Source: Brachionus manjavacas
Lineage: Eukaryota; Rotifera; Eurotatoria; Ploima; Brachionidae
DNA: 64,000 nt
Direction of reading: 5' to 3'
Assembly: GCA_019054805.1 (NCBI GenBank)
Contig: JAHQIY010000003.1
Coordinates: 7,254,001-7,318,000, forward strand
In this document: in pieces, positions 38,272-55,288 of the stretch
How positions within the stretch are numbered: the first letter of the stretch is position 1
How the letters are laid out: every line of letters starts with the position of its first letter
Notes under the pieces: model-generated
Told to the model about the DNA's origin: nothing
Seen by the model: the letters and a program-made list of their open reading frames with translations, nothing else
Databases searched by the model: none
Translations under genes and position numbers: made by a program

Positions 38272-38621
38272 TAAACGATTTAATAGACAAGAACTTGAAG
38301 GCCTTGCTCAATTGCCAGAGAACAGTGGAGGCTGAATTTGCCATTACCATTACCATTATGAAACTGTTGAACAAAGGACAATACCCAAATCCCATTCTTT
38401 TTTAGAACTCTCTAATGGCTTACCATTCATTGTTATATTAATATTAAAATACTTGTTGTTGATAACCATATTGTTGATAACCATAGGTCAATTGGGTTTC
38501 TTTTTATTGAGATTAACTTTGTGTCATCTGCAAAAAGCTTACAAAGGCAATTTACAACCTAAGGCATATCGTTTATAAAAATTCCAAACAATAAAGGACC
38601 TAATACTGATCCCTGTGGCAA
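38272..38621 (-). pseudogene. non-LTR reverse-transcriptase fragment
   Basis: On the minus strand, QGSVLGPLLFGIFINDMP is followed by a stop, then CKLFADDTKLIS, the catalytic box, at about 38615-38500. Downstream pieces are broken. Only about 100 codons around the active site survive. It sits directly beside the duplicated block that starts at 38622. Confidence 0.75.
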
Positions 38622-39449
38622 TGATTAATATTTTTAAATTTAAAATTTATTTACCATTACCATTATGAAATTTCATTTAGAATTTTTAGAATTTAATTGA
38701 ACCTTCGTGATAACTCTCTCAAATAATTAAGTATCACAAACTTAATTTTTAATTAGGGCGTGTGAACTAAAAAAAAATGTAAGGTATCGAAAGGCTGAGT
38801 TTGGTTATCAAAAACTGCTATTTTGTTTGAAATCTATTATTATATTTTTAGCGCCTTCAAATATAATTTTTAATTGATTCTGTATATTGCGCTTGCTTCA
38901 TTATATTCTAATCTTTACACTTTGACAAAAAAACTAAATATTTAAATAAAAATAAAATAAAATTATTCTCTAAGTTTTTTCTGATTTAGCGAAGAAAAAT
39001 TAAATACCAAATATCTAATTATTTTATTATAAAAAAAATTAACCAATTTATTCTCAAATTTAATTTTCTATTAAAAAAGTGAAAAAGAATTTTACTTATG
39101 ATTTTAATGAAGTCAATAATTTAAAAAAAATCTTGTCGTGAAAACTGAAATACTTTGATGGGTTAGAATAAGAAAAGATTTAGAATTCTTTGATGAATTT
39201 TATGTCTATTTCTAAAATTTTCTAAAGCTGATGAATTTGTTTTTGGAAACAGGATTAATTCTAATTTGGATAGATCCCGCGTGGTCTAGTGGTTAGGATT
39301 TGACGCTCTCACCGTCAAGGCCCGGGTTCAATTCCCGGCACGGGAAAATATTTTTAATCAAATAAAATATGTATTCAATTTTATTTTTTAATTTATAAAA
39401 ATTAACATCTTTAACTTCGATCATTAATTAAGTAATCAAAATATTTATT
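38622..39449 (+). repeat. segmental duplication, copy A (carries tRNA-Glu)
   Basis: Three blocks match copy B at 45291-47155: 38622-38946 with 45291-45615 (same length, about four differences), roughly 38959-39004 with 46588-46634, and 39184-39449 with 46890-47155 (about four or five differences, tRNA included). Copy A lacks the retrotransposon present in copy B, so it shows the empty site. Between blocks 2 and 3 the two copies have unrelated sequence. Confidence 0.9.
39275..39346 (+). tRNA. trnE-CTC: tRNA-Glu (anticodon CTC)
   Basis: A 72-base cloverleaf with A box TGGTCTAGTGG, B box GGTTCAATTCC, anticodon loop CTCTCAC and perfect anticodon and T stems. The acceptor stem has a C6-A67 mismatch. 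Followed by an A run and TTTTT (Pol III terminator). Lies in duplicated copy A. Confidence 0.95.
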
Positions 39450-43100: not shown

Positions 43101-44200
43101 TGTCTATTCAGAAAAAAACATCTTCAGGTTGTTTTTGCAACCGAAACCCTAAGTTTGGGTAATCATTTTTAAATTTATGTTTTTTGAATAGAAATTTTAT
43201 TGATTTAATCACATTAGGAATTAATATGCCATGTAAAACAGTGGTGATACCAAGTGACTTGTGCTACTTGAATCCTATTTATTACCGGCATATGGTCGGT
43301 CGAGCTGGCAGACGTGGATTTGATACAATAGGAAACATTGTATTTTTTGGAGTGCCCAAGAACAAAATTAAAAATGTTATTGCTTCAAAAACTTCTAATA
43401 TTAGAGGCTCTTTCAGTCTTAATTTAAAATTAATTACACAATTTTCATCAATGCAATTTTATGATCCAAAAGTAATGAAGATTTTCGAATCGTTTTTAAA
43501 AAACCCGATTGCTCGTCTCAGCAGCAATTATGAGCTGAAAAACGCTCAAAAGAGCGTTTATATAAAAATTCAATATTTGATGTCCAAGGCTTACATAGAT
43601 TCAAATTTTAACCCGAAAATTCATAAAGTTAAATGCTTGATTTTATTGAGAAATGAAAATCTGGCATCAATTGATCTAATCGATTTCATTTTAAGTGCAA
43701 GCTTTGATAAGTTGGTCATGAACAAAGAAATTGGAGAAATGTGTGATTTAATGTGCATCATTCTGAGCCATTTTTTGAAAATTAAAATTTTTTCCCAAGA
43801 ACAAGCAAAAGCACTTTCTTTTATCCTACTTCCTGAAGTAGGAGAATTGAAAAATTATTTAATGAGTAAAGAAAATGAAATTGCTGAATTTGTTCAAAGT
43901 TTTTTGGAAGATCAGGATGATAGCGAATATTTTCTAAGAGGCTTCTCGAACTCGCTGCAAAATGTGCTTATGAAAAAAAATTCGTATATTTACGATTTTT
44001 ATCGAAATGGAAACTTGGAAAAAATCGAAGAAGTAAACAAGGTTTCAGTGAACAGTTTATGGTTTGCCATGAAAGAATTAAGATTTGTAACAAAAGCAAT
44101 TGAGCCATTGTTTGATTTCAAGTCTTCGTTTATTGTTCGTCAGGCATTTTCATTGTTAAGCGAAAAAGTTGAAAAAAGATTTTTTGAAATTCATAATTAA
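40191..44200 (+). CDS. DDX60: DDX60-like DExD/H-box RNA helicase (Ski2-related), with an apparent one-base frameshift
   Basis: Exons 40191-41667, 41720-43158 and 43218-44200, with GT-AG junctions. About 1299 residues if one missing base is allowed near 42523-42527; human DDX60 is about 1712. DDX60 proteins are cytoplasmic RNA helicases linked to antiviral RNA sensing and Ski/exosome function. N-terminal region (1-170) resembles the DDX60 PIN-like part, with IEGDSLLNY near residue 30. Helicase motifs: I PTSSGKT (about 496-501), Ia APIKALANQVAAEV, II DEVQ (about 601; DEVH in human), III SATI (about 629), V TETLSLGINMPCK, VI HMVGRAGRRGFD (about 1000). The last 250 residues match the DDX60 C-terminal helical region. 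At about 42520 the frame changes by -1, yet both sides align to DDX60 (DYEKFLVK then LQTWFKAGKL). This is a sequencing or assembly error, a recent mutation, or a frameshift site. Confidence 0.9.
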
Positions 44201-44975: not shown

Positions 44976-45615
44976 TACAGAAATATTCATCAAATCATTT
45001 AATCAACACTTATAAAAAAAAAATTTTTAAATCAATTTTTGATAAGAATTTTTCAATATAATAAATAAAATAAATCAATCAATTAAATAATCAATACTAA
45101 TTTCTTTTTCTTTTATTTTTATTATTCTGGCAGCGGAGCAACAGGTAAAACCTTGTTATATTTAATAGCAAACTTTTATATCGTACATTAAATTTAACTA
45201 TTAATTGAAAAAAGTTTTTCAAGAATGGGTAAAAATATTGTAAATAAACAATGTCAAATAAAGAAAGGTTTTGACGAGCATTTTTTCTAATGATTAATAT
45301 TTTTAAATTTAAAATTTATTTACCATTACCATTATGAAATTTTATTTAGAATTTTTAGAATTTAATTAAACCTTCGTGATAACTCTCTCAAATAATTAAG
45401 TATCACAAACTTAATTTTTAATTAGGGCGTGTGAATTAAAAAAAAATGTAAGGTATCGAAAGGCTGAGTTTGGTTATCAAAAACTGCTATTTTGTTTGAA
45501 ATCTATTAATATATTTTTAGCGCCTTCAAATATAATTTTTAATTGATTCTGTATATTGCGCTTGCTTCATTATATTCTAATCTTTACACTTTGACAAAAA
45601 AACTAAATATTTAAA

Positions 45616-46587
45616 AAAAAATATTAAGATTATTTAGTCCTCTTTTATTTAGCATTTATATTAATGATATCCCTAAAAGAAACAAAACAAATAATGAATA
45701 CTCTCTTCTTTTTGCAGATGATCTAGCTATAACAATGGCTAATTAAGTGGAAAATGAAGATGTCAGCTGAAAAGTCGTGTTCAGTAATATTCTCTAAGTA
45801 CAAGAAAGAAAGTGATAATCTTAACTTAAAAATTTATGGAAATAGAATAAAAAGCCAGAAAGAAATAAAGTTTCTAGGTATTAAATTTGATTCTAAATTA
45901 AATTTCAATACACTGGTTGACGAAATAAAAGAAAGTTGCAATACAAGGCTAAATCTAATTAAGATTCTGTCAAACAAAAAATGGGGTCTTAATCAAAAAA
46001 CGTTGGGAAATATTTATAAATCTTTAGTTGGTTCAATTCTAGACTATTCGTTTCCTTGCTTGAATTCATTTTTAGAAAATAATATCAAAAAGTTACAAGC
46101 AATTCAGAATACAGCAGTCAGATCTATCCTCAGATTAAAATATGATACTCCCTCCAGCATCATGCATCAGGAGGCTTTTGATAAACTTAAATTACTGACA
46201 GTCTCGAATCGACTTCTTGAGTTGAGTGAGAGATATGTTGGGACAGGACTGAGTTATTCCATTCCATTGGTTGTCAGACTGATGGATGAATACAAAGCGG
46301 GTTTCGAATCAAGAAATATCGAATACCCGACTCCATTGTGAAATTGCTACCTTACCTCTTTTTTTCCTGAAACCTAAACTATGTAAACCTGAATGACCTA
46401 AAACTCTCATTATCATATATCTATTTTTTATTCCAGGTTATTAATTCTTACAAACTTTATTCAAATTTTTATTTTTATTCTTTGATTTTATTTTACTTAA
46501 ATTTTTTAATTTTTAATTTTACTTAACTTAATATTTTATTTTTATTCTGAAGGAGCTTTAGCTCGGTACAGTTAACAAATAAATAAA
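45616..46587 (+). pseudogene. 5'-truncated non-LTR retrotransposon inserted in duplication copy B
   Basis: Starts inside RT region 4 (SPLLFSIYINDIP), then LLFADDLAITMAN and a stop; a frame break is followed by an intact 195-codon piece (45754-46341) with CSVIFSKYK, KFLGIKFDSKLNF and SILDYSFPCLN. The 3' end has TTATTCTGAAGGAGCTTTAG then AAATAAATAAAA. The undisturbed copy A at 38946-38959 gives the pre-insertion site. The AT-rich junctions leave the exact target duplication ambiguous (perhaps AAATAAATAAAAT-like). Confidence 0.85.
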
Positions 46588-46980
46588 ATAATTATTCTCT
46601 AAGTTTTTTCTGATTTAGCAAAGAAAAATTAAACGCTTATATTTTATTCATATGACAAATTTATAGAAAGTATATGACAATTTTTTCTTTTATTAACTGA
46701 CAAAATAAAAATAAAAAGGATAACAAAATTATAGAAGCTACTGACAATTTTTTTTATAATAATAACAAACATTTTCTTTTATGACAAAAAGTAGGAATAA
46801 AATAATGACAAATATTTGAAAAAAAGGGGTGCAAAATTATTGAATCCAATGACAAATTTTTTTATTACGAAAACAAAATAAAATTCAAAAATTCTTTGAT
46901 GAATTTTATGTCTATTTCTAAAATTTTCTAAAGCTGATGAATTTGTTTTTAGAAACAGGATTAATTCTAATTTGGATAGA

Positions 46981-47052
46981 TCCCGCGTGGTCTAGTGGTT
47001 AGGATTTGACGCTCTCACCGTCAAGGCCCGGGTTCAATTCCCGGCACGGGAA
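46981..47052 (+). tRNA. trnE-CTC: tRNA-Glu (anticodon CTC)
   Basis: Identical to the copy at 39275-39346, including the C6-A67 mismatch and intact A and B boxes. The flanks are shared on both sides because it lies in duplication copy B. Confidence 0.95.
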
Positions 47053-47351
47053 AATATTTTTAATCATATAAAATATGTTTTCAATTTTATTTTTTAATTT
47101 AAAAAAATTAACATCTTTAACTTCGATCATTAATTAAGTAATCAAAATATTTATTATATAATAAAAATGACCGTGAACTGTTTTTTAAAAACAACATTAA
47201 ATTTTTTTTTAAATGCTAATTTTAATCTTTTTTAAAAATTAGTTTTATCTATGCCAATTAAACTTAGTTCTGTGGTTACACTGGTTGTAAGTAGATCAAT
47301 GATAAAATAATCATCAAATTTAATTCAAAAAGGTTAAATAATAAAAATAGG

Positions 47352-47699: not shown

Positions 47700-49680
47700 A
47701 GGTTAAAAATGGGTGATAAAAGGCCGATAGTAAAAGTTCACCACAAATTTATTAAATCTAGAACAAATATTATATGAATTATAACAAAAATATAAAAAAC
47801 AACAAAAATGATAAAAAATAAGAACAAATTTAATATTTTATTAACAGAAAATAAAAATGTTGCACATAAATGATAAAAATGTAACAGAATTATTAGAGTA
47901 ATCACTAATCAATTAAAAAATTAACTATCTGAGTTAATTAATAATTAATTGAGTGATTTAATTAACTTAATGTATAACTTATCAGAATAAAACAGATAGA
48001 AATGTGGATAAAATACAACTTAATCATATAATGAATTCAGAAAGCGTAGAACCAAAAACGAGAGTGTCTTGTTAGATCCATCAGACAAAACTCTTGATGA
48101 TGTTGACGTATTTTCAGGCAAAATCTTAAAAAGCCCCAAGTCAGAAAAGAAAAGAGGAAAAGCTATAATGTACGATATGCATTTTGAATTCGACAATTTC
48201 AAAGATTTGACGGGAAAGTGAATGGAAACTCGTGGATATTTAAAAAACAAGAAGGAGACAAATAAAGATATTATTGTAAATATCTAAATAACGGTTGTCG
48301 GGCAGCACTTTATCTCGAAGTAAACTATGGGACAACAGGTAGATGTTTTGTTTCAGAAGATGATCACAGGAACCACATAGAAGAAGAGAATAAATAAAAA
48401 ATTGACGACGATGTAATCAATCGAATAAAATACTTAGAAAGTTTGGGACAAAAGACTGAGCGTATCATTCATTAGTTAATCAAGAAAGGAATAAATCCGC
48501 CAAAAAAAGATAGAAAAATTCGTAAAGAAAAAAAAGTAACTGCTCAGCCAACTTTGAACCACCTTTTACATGGTGTGGAAAATATCAAGAAATTCCGGAG
48601 AATGAAAACGAAGAAGTAAGGATCAAATGTTGTCAGGCACAACTAATGGGTTAGAATCAAGTCACGAAAAAATCAAAAATGGATTAAGAGGACGAAGACT
48701 AGGCTTGTTAGAATTTTAATGAATGTCGCGAAAATATGATCAAATTTTGGTCAATCATTCGGTCTGATACAATCGAAACAACAAATCAAGATACTAACGA
48801 ACAGCTGGAATTCGACAATATTAACATCAAGGAATTTCACAATGAGCCAGTCTATTCAAACAGAGACATGCAATATGGAAAAACTTGGAATGACAAGGGT
48901 AAAATAATCCAATATTTACGTAGTAGCATTTGTTAAGTGAAAAGCGGCGATAAAGAGAAAACTTTAACAAGAAATGAGTGTAAACAATTTTTGCAAGATC
49001 TCGAAGATAATAAATGGAATAATTTGGATGAAATATTTGTTGCAATCAATAGAATTCGTATCATTACAATGAACAAAGAGAACTTAAAATTGAGTCACTG
49101 TACTTGTTGGTTTTGGTTGAAGCACTATGTGTTAAATTTTAAATCAATTGGCATGGATTTACCGTTGACAAATAAAAGAAAAGCTGGTGGTTCTTTAAAT
49201 AATAAATCAGCATTGATTACTCGACCATCTGATTTAATCGAAACAATCGAGGCTGGTATTGAAGAAGAAGACGAAGAAGAAGAATTAATTCAGCCACCAA
49301 CTAAAAGAATTAATAGGGCTAGTTTACAAAACGTTGCTCATGAAAAAGCTACATGTTAAACATACGGCGGTGAATTAATGAAAAATGAAATATTTTTATT
49401 GTGTTAACAAATGTAAACAAGATAATTAGTACTCTAATTATTATTTTTTTCTTCAATTTGTGATGAGAATAAAAAAAAAATTATTAGTTTAATGAATTTG
49501 TTTGTATTTTTCTTTTTTTTTACTTCTTTCTAATAAAAATTCTATTTTCTTAATATGTGTTCATTATTTCCTTAAATTGTTCTTATTCTAATAAATCAGT
49601 TCTTATTTTATTAAATTTGTGGTATATTTTACAATTTTTGTGGTTGAAATATATTCATCGTCGTGATAAAACTGATTTAT
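47700..49680 (+). mobile_element. MULE-type DNA transposon with FLYWCH protein (degraded)
   Basis: Left subterminal motif TTCACCACAAATTTATTAAA and then AACAAAT. The reverse complement of the right side (about 49540-49680) has ATACCACAAATTTAATAAAA and then AAGAAC, so the ends form long degenerate inverted repeats. In between, broken plus-strand frames encode SVLLDPSDKTLDDVD, a FLYWCH-like finger (WIFKKQEGDK, YYC, NGCRAALYL, DDHRNHIEEE; about 48230-48395), and two open C-terminal pieces (48736-48936 and 48937-49359) with an acidic end. No DDE catalytic motif was recognised, so it is internally deleted or dead. A relative lies at 9.65-10.35 kb. Confidence 0.7.
48937..49359 (+). pseudogene. C-terminal open frame of the MULE/FLYWCH element
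   Basis: A 140-codon open frame, continuous with the preceding frame (48736-48936) apart from one stop. It has a FLDQL-like helical region (KQFLQDLEDNKWNNLDE) and a Glu-rich stretch EEEDEEEELIQPPTKR near the end. The first codon is GTG rather than ATG. It is most likely the end of a FLYWCH-family transposon protein, not a host gene. Confidence 0.5.
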
Positions 49681-50095
49681 AGGATGTTTAAATTTAGAAT
49701 TTTATTTTTCATAATGAACAACTAATAATTTCAAATCTAAAATTTTTTTTATTAAATTGATGATTTCTTTTTAATAAAAATATATTCCTCAAATGGATAG
49801 ATCCCGCGTGGTCTAGTGGTTAGGATTTGACGCTCTCACCGTCAAGGCCCGGGTTCAATTCCCGGCACGGGAAAATATTTTTTTAATATTTTTTGAATCA
49901 ATTTCATTTCGCATTTTTTTTATTTAAACCTAATGATCATTCTTCCTTAAATTTTTTAATTAAATTGAAAAGATGAGATAAAAAAATCACAAAAAAAGAG
50001 AAAAAACAAACAATTAATTTAAACAAATAATTTAATGTTTAAATATGGTGCACCTTCATAATGAGAAAGTGTTCTGATACATTGAATATAAGGTT
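49484..50095 (+). repeat. inverted repeat, left arm (612 bp, carries tRNA-Glu)
   Basis: Reverse complement of 53333-53944, the same length, with about six single-base differences (roughly 99% identity). The outer end begins inside the right inverted repeat of the MULE element. The inner end is around AATATAAGGTT. It holds the tRNA-Glu at 49802. Confidence 0.93.
49802..49873 (+). tRNA. trnE-CTC: tRNA-Glu (anticodon CTC)
   Basis: Same sequence as the other Glu copies; 5' flank GGATAGA and 3' flank AAATATTTTTTT (terminator). Lies in the left arm of the inverted repeat. Confidence 0.95.
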
Positions 50096-51240
50096 AATTA
50101 TTATAGCGAAGAATAAAAGAAATATCTACAAGCGAAGTCCAACTTTCGGAAACAAAAGAAGCATAACTTGCACCAACGAAAAGAGATTCTAAAACCAACA
50201 ATTGAAGACCCAAAATTAACCCGCAAATGACTTATATAACCTTAGACTAATAGAAATAGGACACCATTGCGAATCTTAATGAATCAGGACTGCTCGAAAA
50301 ACTATCCGATGCTCTCATAGACCATGACAAAAAAATTTGGTTTTAAAAAATCGTCATTATTCAACCATGCAATTTTTACTCTAAAACAAGACCTAAAAAT
50401 GTGCAAAAAAAAACAAGAGGAGACTTTACGCATGTGCTTTTGACGCATCCAAAGCAGACTTGTTTTTAAGTTACAAGTCTTAAGTCAAGTCAAGTAAATG
50501 ACCTAAAAATTTTTTTTAATGAAAAATCCGATGCTCTCATAGACCATGACAAAAAAATTTGGTTTTAAAAAATCGTCATTATTCAACCATGCAATTTTTA
50601 CTCTAAAACAAGACCTAAAAATGTGCAAAAAAAAACAAGAGGAGACTTTACGCATGTGCTTTTGACGCATCCAAAGCAGACTTGTTTTTAAGTTACAAGT
50701 CTTAAGTCAAGTCAAGTAAATGACCTAAAAATTTTTTTAATGAAAAATCCGATGCTCTCATAGACCATGACAAAAAATTTGGTTTTAAAAAATCGTCATT
50801 ATTCAACCATGCAATTTTTACTCTAAAACAAGACCTAAAAATGTGCAAAAAAAAACAAGAGGAGACTTTACGCATGTGCTTTTGACGCATCCAAAGCAGA
50901 CTTGTTTTTAAGTTACAAGTCTTAAGTCAAGTCAAGTAAATGACCTAAAAATTTTTTTTAATGAAAAAATTTCTAAATAAACCATAATCTTAAAATTATA
51001 TTGTTGAAAGTTATCTGCATTTATCCATAAGGTTCAGCCTTCAGACAAAAAATAAATTTCGTTGAATAACGCACATATATAAATAGGTGATACATTTCTT
51101 AAAGAAATAGAATTTCTTTAACATTTTATGGTTTTTGTATTTGTTAATTAAAAAAATAAATTTAGTTCAAGTCATAACTTTGACTATAATTTTTGTGACT
51201 TAGACTTAAAACTGTGACTTATAAACAAGTCTGATCCAAA
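50096..51240. repeat. spacer of the inverted repeat: three tandem 222-bp units and flanks
   Basis: Units start at about 50306, 50528 and 50749 (period 222 then 221) and end near 50967. They begin CCGATGCTCTCATAGACCAT, include ACAAGAGGAGACTTTACGCA and end in AAGTCAAGTCAAGTAAATGA plus a T/A run. The three copies are almost identical apart from homopolymer length, so the array is young. No coding capacity is convincing: a 62-codon antisense frame (50702-50890) repeats with the unit. Confidence 0.9.
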
Positions 51241-52017
51241 GCCTCTGGTAAGGTAAACCGTCAACTCTTATGTGCAAAATGATGGACATGAACATCTCAC
51301 AAGCCATAATACATGCAATAATTACGTACTACAGTGACTCGACAATAATCATAAACAATGAAAACGAATTTTCCATACCATTTAAAACAAGAATAGGAGT
51401 TCGTCAAGGTGGAGCACTACTACCTCTTATTATTGAGCTGGAAAACCTAGGTATTGCCATCAAACACATGTTCGGGAAGATTGATGTACTTGGCTATGCT
51501 GACGACATTCTGACAAATGGAAATAGTGGAGTTGTTTGACATTGACTCAGAAATCAAATATAACCCCGATAAAACCACACTAACAATTTTTAATGAGAAA
51601 GCCTATCGGAATGCTTAGGAAAAAAGTTTGGACATGTGGCAAGAATACCTAAAACTTGACATTAAAGAATTCGAATCGGTAAAGTACTTAGGCGTCGTAA
51701 TAGAAAAGGCTGACAAGAAAAAAAAACATCTGACCAAGAGAGGGAAACTTGCCCTATCACCGTCAGCCAAACTCAAAGAACATACTCAGACTAACAAATG
51801 CACCAAAAACTTTCTCTTAGAAAACCTTGAGAGTGATGGAATAAAAAGCATATGGGTTGGCACAGCACATATATTTGAAGAAAATTCTAAAACCCTTGAA
51901 GAAATCGCCATGTTGTGTAAAGCCACTACTTTCCTAGACAAGCTTGAAATGGAAGCCGAAAAGCGAGATAACAATCAAAAATATCAAAAGAATACTCAGC
52001 AAAAGCAATCAAAATAG
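51241..52017 (+). pseudogene. non-LTR reverse-transcriptase fragment
   Basis: Plus strand: MCKMMDMNISQ, then IPFKTRIGVRQGGALLPL (region 4), and DVLGYADDIL, the catalytic YADD box (51270-51539). After a frame break come FDSEIKYNPDKTTLTIFNEKAYRN-like sequence and SVKYLGVVIEKADKKKKHL (51628-52017). The active-site residues are present, but the interrupted frame and the truncated N-terminus and thumb make it inactive. Confidence 0.85.
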
Positions 52018-52370
52018 TATTCAAAAAAACCTATTTGAGCTGATAAAATTTGAAAATCAAGCAATATTAAATTAAAATAATTTTAAATTCTAATGTCCCT
52101 TCTGTAAAAATTTGGTTTTTGAAAATTCATTAAAAATGCAAAACCTAAAAACTAGTGATGTACCTTATTTGACGGTAAACCCAAAACAGTGGTCGGTTGA
52201 GTGGCTTTTTATTATAAATTTAATAAATAAATTTAATATTCAAAAAATTTTGCTTTTTAAATGAGAGAAAAAAAACATAAATTTCAAAAATCAAAAAGAG
52301 AGAAAACATAAAATTAATAAAAAGACTTTAATTAATTGAAATGAGGCGAGATTAGACGGTATTATAATTA

Positions 52371-52522
52371 TACCGTAATCCCTCGTTCAATTATGCTGCA
52401 CCATTAGCTATATTACCAGCTTTTGAACAATGCACTTAAGTACATCTAACCCATTCTTAAAAAAATTTTAATCTTATGTTTTAATTTGCATGTGCAGCAT
52501 AATCGCACGAGGGAATACGGTA
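52371..52522. mobile_element. 152-bp MITE with 32-bp terminal inverted repeats
   Basis: Left end TACCGTAATCCCTCGTTCAA and then TTATGCTGCAC. Reverse complement of the right end: TACCGTATTCCCTCGTGCGA and then TTATGCTGCAC. Possible TA target duplication if the ends are read as CCGTA. A degenerate relative lies at 30322-30455. Confidence 0.85.
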
Positions 52523-52619
52523 ATTAACTACTATTACCTCTTTTATAAAATTATACTGAATTAAATTATTTTAATTATATTATAGTTCTTTATCTCTGAA
52601 ATTAAATTTAACAAATTAA

Positions 52620-53230
52620 AAAAAATTTGATTTTGGTTCTTGTTTTTTTATCTTTTTATATGTTTCGTGATTGTAAGTTATTTAGATCATTGTATTTAAC
52701 TTTTGTTCGTCCTCTTTTGGAATTTGCTGTGCCTGTATGGTCTCAATTTCTTAAGTCGGATTGTGAGAATCTTGAGAGGATTCAACGCAGAGCTACGAAA
52801 TTTGTTTCTTCAATTAGAAACAAACCGTATGAAAGCAGATTGAAGGCTTTAAACATTCCAAATCTGGTGGAAAGAAGAAAAAGAGGTGATCTAATTCAAT
52901 TATACAAAATCATGCATGGAATAGAATTGGTTGAAAAAAACAACAATTTTAATGTCACCAAAATCCAAGGAAGAGGTCACTGCTTCAAATATCACAAAGA
53001 AATTTCGAGGCTCCAACATAGAGATAACTTTTTTTTCAACAGAACCGCTAACATATGGAACTCACTGCCAAATCAATTAGTTGAAGCCCCTAATGTTAAC
53101 AGCTTTAAAGCAGGCATTGATTGCTGGATGAGCAGCAATCAATCACATCAGCTGTCATAGTGTGCCTTATCAGCACACTCGCTGGCTAGCCAGCTACAGT
53201 CAAAAAACTACTACTACCTCGTTCAAATTT
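52620..53230 (+). pseudogene. non-LTR retrotransposon 3' end (RT thumb, C-terminus and tail)
   Basis: The 52627-53160 frame encodes LTFVRPLLEFAVPVWSQF, then LERIQRRATKFVSSIR, LVERRKRGDLIQLYKIMHG, and NSLPNQLVEAPNVNSFKAGI ending in WM-type sequence, a typical Jockey/CR1 C-terminus. Directly after the stop are two hairpins: AGTGTGC / GCACACT (53159-53179) and the palindrome GCTGGCTAGCCAGC (about 53182-53195). Such 3' hairpins may act as RT recognition sites. 5'-truncated. Confidence 0.85.
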
Positions 53231-53332
53231 AAATATCTATTTTCCTATATTTTTATTATAAAAAAGAAAATTTTGATTTTTGATTCATTAAAAAATAATT
53301 TTAAACAAAAATTTTCTTCTAAATTAAACAAA

Positions 53333-53944
53333 ACCTTATATTCAATGTATCAGAACACTTTCTCATTATGAAGGTGCACCATATTTAAACATTAAATTAT
53401 TTGTTTAAATTAATTGTTTGTTTTTTCTCTTTTTTTGTGATTTTTTTATCTCATCTTTTCAATTTAATTAAAAAATTTAAGGAAGAATGATCATTAGGTT
53501 TAAATAAAAAAAATGCGAAATGAAATTGATTCAAAAAATATTAAAAAAATATTTTCCCGTGCCGGGAATTGAACCCGGGCCTTGACGGTGAGAGCGTCAA
53601 ATCCTAACCACTAGACCACGCGGGATCTATCCATTTGAGGAATATATTTTTATTGAAAAGAAATCATCAATTTAATAAAAAAAATTTTAGATTTAAAATT
53701 ATTAGTTGTTCATTATGAAAAATGAAATTCTAAATTTAAACATCCTATAAATCAGTTTTATCACGACGATGAATATATTTCAACCACAAAAATTGTAAAA
53801 TATGCCACAAATTTAATAAAATAAGAACTGATTTATTAGAATAAGAACAATTTAAGGAAATAATGAACACATATTAAGAAAATATAATTTTTATTAGAAA
53901 GAAGTAAAAAAAAAAGAAAAATACAAACAAATTCATTAAACTAA
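53333..53944 (-). repeat. inverted repeat, right arm (612 bp, carries tRNA-Glu)
   Basis: Mirror of 49484-50095. It includes the MULE right-end sequence (near 53810-53944), which has no MULE body beside it, so this arm is likely the derived copy. It stops abruptly at 53944, where a 32-base tRNA-Glu fragment starts. Confidence 0.93.
53554..53625 (-). tRNA. trnE-CTC: tRNA-Glu (anticodon CTC)
   Basis: Identical to the other Glu copies on the opposite strand; within the right arm of the inverted repeat. Downstream (leftward) an A run on the plus strand gives the U-rich terminator. Confidence 0.95.
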
Positions 53945-53976
53945 GCGTCAAATCCTAACCACTAGACCACGCGGGA
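53945..53976 (-). pseudogene. tRNA-Glu 5' half (32 bases), truncated at the anticodon loop
   Basis: Matches tRNA-Glu positions 1-32 exactly (TCCCGCG... to ...TTGACGC), including the 5' flanking TAGA. It ends at the first loop base, where the inverted-repeat arm begins. No anticodon, T arm or 3' end, so not functional. It marks a rearrangement breakpoint. Confidence 0.93.
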
Positions 53977-54455
53977 TCTATTCTTTTGGTGTCTGTTTCG
54001 ATAATAAATTTTATTGGAATTTTTTCTTTTCATTAGAGTTCAGAAAGTATTATGCAATTTAAACGTTTCAAGCGTTTCAATATTTTTTTTAAATTAATTA
54101 AAACTGTTTTATTCTGTTGTTTTTAAACTTATTTTAATTAGCAGACAAAAAGCATTAATGATAAAGCTTTTGTTTATTTTAATTTTAATTTTAACATTTA
54201 TCCTCTCTTATAAATTTTTTTTCAAGGCTGAATTACGAATATAATCTTTTGATTTTTGGGCATATTTTTTTCCTTAAAAAATGTTAATTCAAATTTTTAA
54301 TCAAAAATTTAATTTAGAAATCCTCTGACGTTTTACTTTGGAAGCGTTTTTACAAAAACAAATTTTATTTATTTAAAGCATTTTTATTATTATTTCAATA
54401 ATTTAAGCCAATATTTTTGATTTATTTAAAAGGCAAACAATTTCAAAAAAAAATA
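53977..54455. other. AT-rich spacer
   Basis: No feature recognised between the tRNA fragment and tRNA-Gly. Confidence 0.4.
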
Positions 54456-54527
54456 TGCGTCAGCCGGGAGTCGAACCCGGATCTGCTGCTTGGAAGGCAA
54501 CAATGATAACCGCTACACCACTGACGC
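54456..54527 (-). tRNA. trnG-TCC: tRNA-Gly (anticodon TCC)
   Basis: 72 bases; acceptor GCGTCAG / CTGACGC fully paired; anticodon loop CTTCCAA; B box GGTTCGACTCC. A/T-rich flanks with a U-run terminator on its 3' side. Confidence 0.95.
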
Positions 54528-55288
54528 GCTTATTAAATATGAAATGTATCTAATTTAACAATCATTTAGATTATTTCCTTTTTTGATACCTAACTACGAA
54601 AAAATTAGATCTTAAAATTATTTATGCATTTTTATTAATTAAGATTAATAATTAGAAATAATGAAAAAAATAAAAACCAAAATACTATGTGGGAAAAAAA
54701 ACCGTTGAATCTGAATTTCGATTTTTTTTAATAATACTCAAATTCTTTTTTAAAGTTAAATAAAAAAATAATAATTTGCTTAACATCAAGTTCATAGAAT
54801 TTAAAAAATTATTTTTTCTAAATGGTCATTTAAAAACGAATCGAACAACACGCGAAACTTGTCTTTAAAATATGCAATTTCTTTAATAGGATTATGAAAA
54901 AATTTCAAGTTTAAAAATTCAATTTTTAAAAGATCCTAAATTAATTTAATTATTTAACATGTGACAACATGGTTTTTGCTCTTCTATATTTTTGAAATAA
55001 TTTTCAAAGCTTTAGTTCAAAATTTTTAATAGTGAACTATAAAGCTAAAAATTAAATTAGCAATATTAATTATATTAGACAAGTTTAGCATACCGTTAGA
55101 TTCGTTTAAACAGATCAATTTGAAAAATTTTAATTTCTGAAATTCTATGACTGCAAATTTTTATTTTATTTAAAAATTTATCACTTAAAATATTTTTAAA
55201 GACTTTTTAGAAAAACCTCTTTTTTTTCATTTTCTCAGTCAAATATTTAAAATTCAGCAAATGTTTTTTATTATTTTAATCAAAAAAA
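54528..55288. other. AT-rich spacer
   Basis: No gene or repeat recognised. Confidence 0.4.

Follow-up and report, generated by a model that had tools for sequence, protein, structure and literature searches.

How a transfer RNA (tRNA) gene came to stand in both arms of a long, nearly perfect inverted repeat is the question raised by a stretch of 64,000 nucleotides, here called the window, from the rotifer Brachionus manjavacas (GenBank assembly GCA_019054805.1, 114 Mb in 61 contigs; contig JAHQIY010000003.1, abbreviated C3, positions 7254001-7318000). The window has a GC content of 26%; positions are counted from its first base and run on along the contig beyond its end. Two arms of 612 bases, each with a gene for tRNA-Glu, face each other across a spacer of 3.2 kb. 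The inverted duplication is real and young, and it is of a known kind. What is new is that the outer junction of the right arm lies inside another tRNA-Glu gene, a truncated gene that an earlier reading of the letters alone (the sequence-only reading) had missed. The explanation favored here, to which we assign a probability of roughly 0.55, is that a tRNA-Glu gene broke and that its repair left the inverted duplication behind.

The sequence-only reading had counted about six differences between the arms by eye, and alignment agrees closely, giving substitutions at 5 of 611 sites (49542, 49623, 49703, 49732, and 49772) and a one-base indel in a T-run at 49512; an additional end gap, at 50094, simply marks where the arm stops. 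Within 48500-55000, exact inverted matching extends over as many as 323 bases, while 60 first-order Markov sequences modeled on this interval reach no more than 24 (mean 15.5). Both arms contain a tRNA-Glu gene, as had been claimed; each of the two is an intact tRNA-Glu(CTC) gene with a T-run terminator. The description of the repeat as young is borne out in relative terms, the few differences between the arms comparing with identities of only 86.7-96.5% (pieces longer than 400 bases) between other copies of a transposon-like element and the copy at 47722-49662, the end of which lies in the left arm.

The direction of copying can be read from this element. In all six of the other copies compared (L003-L008), homology passes through 49484, the outer end of the left arm, and stops at 49662. 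Position 49484 is therefore not an end of the element, and the left arm consists of the last 179 bases of the element together with flanking sequence that includes the tRNA-Glu gene; a foldback-type transposon with 612-base ends was rejected, since none of the six copies shows a boundary at 49484. The right arm has the same element end, one copy of the target-site duplication, and the flank of the left arm, all without the body of the element, and a separate second insertion of the element was rejected because flank and target-site duplication are present there as well. This shared chimera, with two substitutions that are common to both arms and absent from all nine other element copies aligned (four of them C30 copies with an identical flank, leaving about six independent insertions), supports the earlier proposal that the right arm was copied from the left. 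At 49623, the right arm is the one that changed, because all nine copies keep the left-arm state. The substitution at 49542, where five of the nine, including the two closest, have the left-arm state and the four C30 copies have that of the right, is probably also a change in the right copy. The length of the T-run points the opposite way, that of the right arm being found in seven of the nine copies, that of the left in one, and neither in one.

The sequence-only reading had further recognized, in the right arm, the right end of a Mutator-like element (MULE) without its body. The bodiless element end stands, but the identification as a MULE is not borne out, as no transposase domain was found by Pfam searches on 6 of the 11 element pieces and on an open reading frame (ORF) of 140 amino acids. 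Target duplications of 9 bases are typical of MULEs, and the element can be called MULE-like by this feature only. A second such duplication, TTAGTAATT, accompanies a 283-base copy with the same ends (L017), so that two of the four copies with both ends have one (the copy at 47722-49662 and L017, not L025 or L028). The element could be a nonautonomous copy; one ORF in it has six protein relatives, four of them named as Brachionus plicatilis. Elsewhere, four copies of its right part in C30 (L026, L027, L041, and L043) share an identical 14-base right flank, which suggests segmental duplication, rather than transposition, as the way they multiplied.

At its outer end, the right arm is fused to nucleotides 1-33 of the third tRNA-Glu gene, which is cut beside its anticodon, just before it. 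End joining is expected to show little or no homology at such a junction, and element and tRNA-Glu sequence overlap there by a single base, a T. Sequence comparison found the remainder of the gene at the inner end of neither arm. The 5'-flank of the stump matches the flanks of other genes exactly over 5 bases and, with 2 mismatches, over 12; stump and flank are in total 81-82% identical over 73-88 bases to two tRNA genes. An origin of the stump from a mature tRNA or by retroposition is unlikely, since the flank, too, resembles the flanks of other genes. The suggestion of the sequence-only reading that palindromes with tRNA genes are fragile sites thus gains some support, from one junction that lies inside another tRNA gene.

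Truncation of tRNA copies is rare among the matches scored. A genome search with a 96-base tRNA-Glu query gave 49 candidates, of which 40 were scored, so that the counts are lower bounds: there are at least 41 matches, made up of 15 full-length copies at 98% identity or more, 24 at 78-82%, and two that are close but truncated. Among the close matches for Glu(CTC), 17 in number, these two are the only incomplete ones. No truncated copy was found among 38 Asp copies at 94% or more (40 of 46 candidates scored) or among 14 Gly copies at 95% or more (16 of 16 scored); one Gly match at 91% stops 6 bases early.

From this anatomy, we infer a break, a fold-back, and a joining. The third tRNA-Glu gene would have broken and its 3' portion would have disappeared from the left-hand end, which then, by fold-back or a template switch, would have reached the left locus 3.2 kb away. 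Some 612 bases would then have been copied, through the tRNA-Glu gene and into the element, until the copying strand came off and the copied end was attached to the tRNA-Glu stump by end joining. The net outcome would be one intact tRNA-Glu gene gained, bringing those of the local cluster to eight, and one destroyed, with no function implied beyond the extra gene copy. This explanation is preferred because of the arms and their boundaries, the left-to-right polarity, the near-blunt outer junction, the rarity of truncated tRNA copies, and the human and yeast parallels cited below. An unduplicated spacer is also part of it, and the spacer is single copy on the side of the left arm, with dispersed repeats in its other parts. 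Several points weigh against it. Both arms end in AAGGTT, but microhomology at the inner junction is not measurable without the ancestral empty site; fold-back insertions in yeast are mostly 5-34 bases long, far below the length seen here (PMC11724301); the mobile-element pieces of the spacer may be later arrivals, so that the original loop may have had another length; and a truncated piece of tRNA-Glu 36.5 kb to the right of the stump, in an orientation that fits an inversion, is left unexplained.

This last piece is the foundation of the alternative that survives best. An inversion of 36.5 kb (53944-90426) would have split the third tRNA-Glu gene into a 5' piece that stayed at 53944-53976 on the minus strand and a 3' piece that moved to 90427-90472 on the plus strand, and the left breakpoint would have been filled with the 612-base copy. 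The two halves are the only truncated close Glu(CTC) copies among the 41 matches; they are complementary, lie on one contig on opposite strands as an inversion allows, and overlap by 7 bases, TGACGCT, as expected from a staggered cut. Inverted duplications at inversion breakpoints are, moreover, known from Drosophila (PMC5080602). Against the inversion, no run of four Ts occurs within 50 bases of the 3' piece, whereas each of 16 intact cluster genes has one beginning no more than 7 bases away. The 3' piece also resembles an inserted fragment more than the remnant of a gene, its match to most other copies ending about 2 bases past the tRNA (although one gene is matched over 54 bases, at 94%), and a suitable orientation would, by judgment and not by calculation, hardly be improbable by chance. 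Because the 3' piece has no terminator and its matches stop at about the end of the gene, the inversion is a minority reading, and an unlikely one. It is no easier to credit the more specific proposal that the tRNA-Glu gene is a fragile site cut in its anticodon stem-loop with a 7-base stagger, so that the halves would mark the breakpoints of the inversion, one of them sealed by the 612-base inverted copy. Sequence to the left of 90427 was also considered as a repeat or an element end and rejected, as it matches only itself apart from the tRNA part.

It is quite unlikely that only the 3.2-kb spacer was inverted, by a staggered break whose 612-base stagger would have been duplicated, inverted, at both ends. 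An arm-spacer-arm layout is what this mechanism, described in the Drosophila report (PMC5080602), leads one to expect, but the missing portion of the broken tRNA-Glu gene should then lie at 50096, where the sequence matches only itself and includes no part of a tRNA, and the explanation fails for that reason.

The sequence-only reading had also allowed that the arms might be held alike by gene conversion, and an old inverted duplication maintained in this manner is improbable. The five substitutions are all confined to the outer 289 bases, with the inner 321 identical, a distribution that would suit conversion; a difference-free run of this length is, however, expected by chance at P = 0.14, and gene conversion is not called for since the run is not unusual.

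The possibility of an assembly artefact from a chimeric or fold-back long read, likewise raised earlier, has in its favor that inverted repeats are a classic source of assembly trouble, but, judged on the assembled sequence, it is very improbable given the five real substitutions (two fall inside the element, and the right arm clearly changed at one of these and probably at the other), the asymmetric outer ends, the single-copy sequence that adjoins the left inner junction, and a 9.76-Mb contig with no N within the 124 kb examined.

Features of the inverted repeat and its surroundings (positions counted from the first base of the window)
Feature	Position	Strand	Remarks
Target-site duplication GTGATAAAA, left copy, 9 bases	47713..47721		Flanks the element
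DNA-transposon-like element, 1941 bases	47722..49662	+	Ends GGCCGATAGT...ATTCATCGTC
Left arm (source copy)	49484..50095	+	Last 179 bases of element, target-duplication copy, tRNA-Glu, flanks
Target-site duplication GTGATAAAA, right copy, 9 bases	49663..49671		Present in both arms
tRNA-Glu(CTC), left arm	49802..49873	+	Intact
Spacer beside inner end of left arm	50096..50303		Only genome match is itself
Tandem array, 222-base unit x3	50304..50968		Tandem Repeats Finder, 99% matches
Reverse-transcriptase-like fragment (weak)	51270..51536	+	RVT_1 E 0.04, below cut-off
MITE-like unit, 152 bases	52371..52522		31-nucleotide terminal inverted repeats, 90%
LINE 3'-terminal fragment	52627..53217	+	ORF 52627-53157 plus 3' tail to about 53217
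Right arm (derived copy)	53333..53944	-	Inverted copy of left arm
tRNA-Glu(CTC), right arm	53554..53625	-	Intact
Third tRNA-Glu, 5' part (nucleotides 1-33)	53944..53976	-	Fused to right arm; 5' flank continues rightward
tRNA-Glu 3' part (nucleotides 27-72), L020	90427..90472 (C3:7344427-7344472)	+	One substitution, no terminator

The contents of the spacer are much as the sequence-only reading had described them: a tandem array, two retroelement fragments (a weak RVT_1-like ORF and the 3' end of a long interspersed nuclear element, or LINE), and a unit resembling a miniature inverted-repeat transposable element (MITE). Pfam searches on the spacer ORFs gave sub-threshold matches only. The LINE ORF has 76 relatives, of which 5 have an RVT_1 domain. 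A CTA-rich 3' tail follows it and gives out near 53217, which leaves 115 bases to the right arm; in six of six LINE copies compared, similarity is lost at this tail, AT-rich matches aside. Matches reaching as far as 53333 had suggested that the right arm starts at the 3' end of the LINE; this was rejected, since firm similarity in the six copies stops near 53217 and what follows is AT-rich and chance-like. Sequence to the right of 50095 was rejected as a repeat or element end, as it matches only itself. Within the 222-base unit, bases 142-222, approximately, are a dispersed repeat with numerous copies across the genome (40 of 661 first-look candidates scored), and the remainder has only a self-match among the matches listed.

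The locus is part of a tRNA cluster that spans C3:7293275-7345108 and contains at least 16 intact genes: 8 for Glu, including the two in the arms, 5 for Asp, and 3 for Gly. The cluster has been duplicated directly as well (38620-39449 and 45289-47155), the two longest matching pieces being 98.5% identical. This direct duplication includes a tRNA-Glu gene, and its second copy has extra sequence with an ORF at 45754-46341 that appears LINE-like by eye, without Pfam support. A helicase gene fragment lies at 43184-44197; its Helicase_C match is slightly under the cut-off, some of its relatives bear the name DDX60, and the nearest relative, at 77%, comes from public contigs. Within the Brachionus plicatilis complex, the nuclear DNA content of four sequenced species ranges between 110 and 422 Mbp (PMC6555955).

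Facing pairs of tRNA genes of the same type (Lys, Arg, or Glu), 54-383 bases apart, occur at several sites in the genome (L044-L052). Nine such loci, including L046, were chosen by eye from genome lists of facing tRNA pairs, and in this hand-picked sample none has arm alignments longer than 100 bases at 95% or more. Their best arms are 88-95 bases long at 94.6-97.8%, with 152 bases at 84% in L048, and sharing at high identity is restricted to the gene and a few flanking bases; in L046 and L049-L052, palindromes continue through the gap at 71-90%. Long arms as a general habit of this genome were accordingly rejected, and arms of 612 bases are unusual within this small sample.

If repair of a broken tRNA-Glu gene is the correct explanation, the locus offers a young animal example, at base resolution, of one tRNA gene born and another destroyed at a single repair junction, and it hints that rotifer genomes may break at tRNA genes. 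Among the papers listed in searches on nuclear tRNA clusters, inversions, and inverted tRNA duplications, in Brachionus or elsewhere, titles and abstract openings describe no such locus.

In staggered-break inversions of Drosophila, an inverted duplication of a few hundred bases flanks a segment, as it does here, but the tRNA remainder that this mechanism would place at the inner junction is not there (PMC5080602). Yeast evolutionary breakpoints are enriched for tRNA genes (PMC2675101), and tRNA genes stand at some junctions of segmental duplications in yeast (PMC2518615); the rotifer locus is similar in having a junction in a tRNA gene within a tRNA cluster that contains other duplications, although it is a single case in an animal genome. 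Templated inverted insertions at yeast breaks, in which one end is synthesized and the other captured by end joining, share with it an inverted copy captured at a break, but are mostly 5-34 bases long, as against 612 bases copied from 3.2 kb away (PMC11724301). Human fold-back inverted duplications, in which the single-copy (disomic) spacer typically measures a few kb (median 3,428 bp over 21 sequenced cases), differ in that the human copies are far larger and the rotifer copy is interstitial, with no terminal deletion seen and microhomology not measurable; they resemble it in the inverted copy, the unduplicated spacer of about 3 kb, and the outer end joined elsewhere (PMC3907307). Set beside these systems, the locus looks like a scar left when a DNA break was repaired in an already known manner, rather than like a new system.

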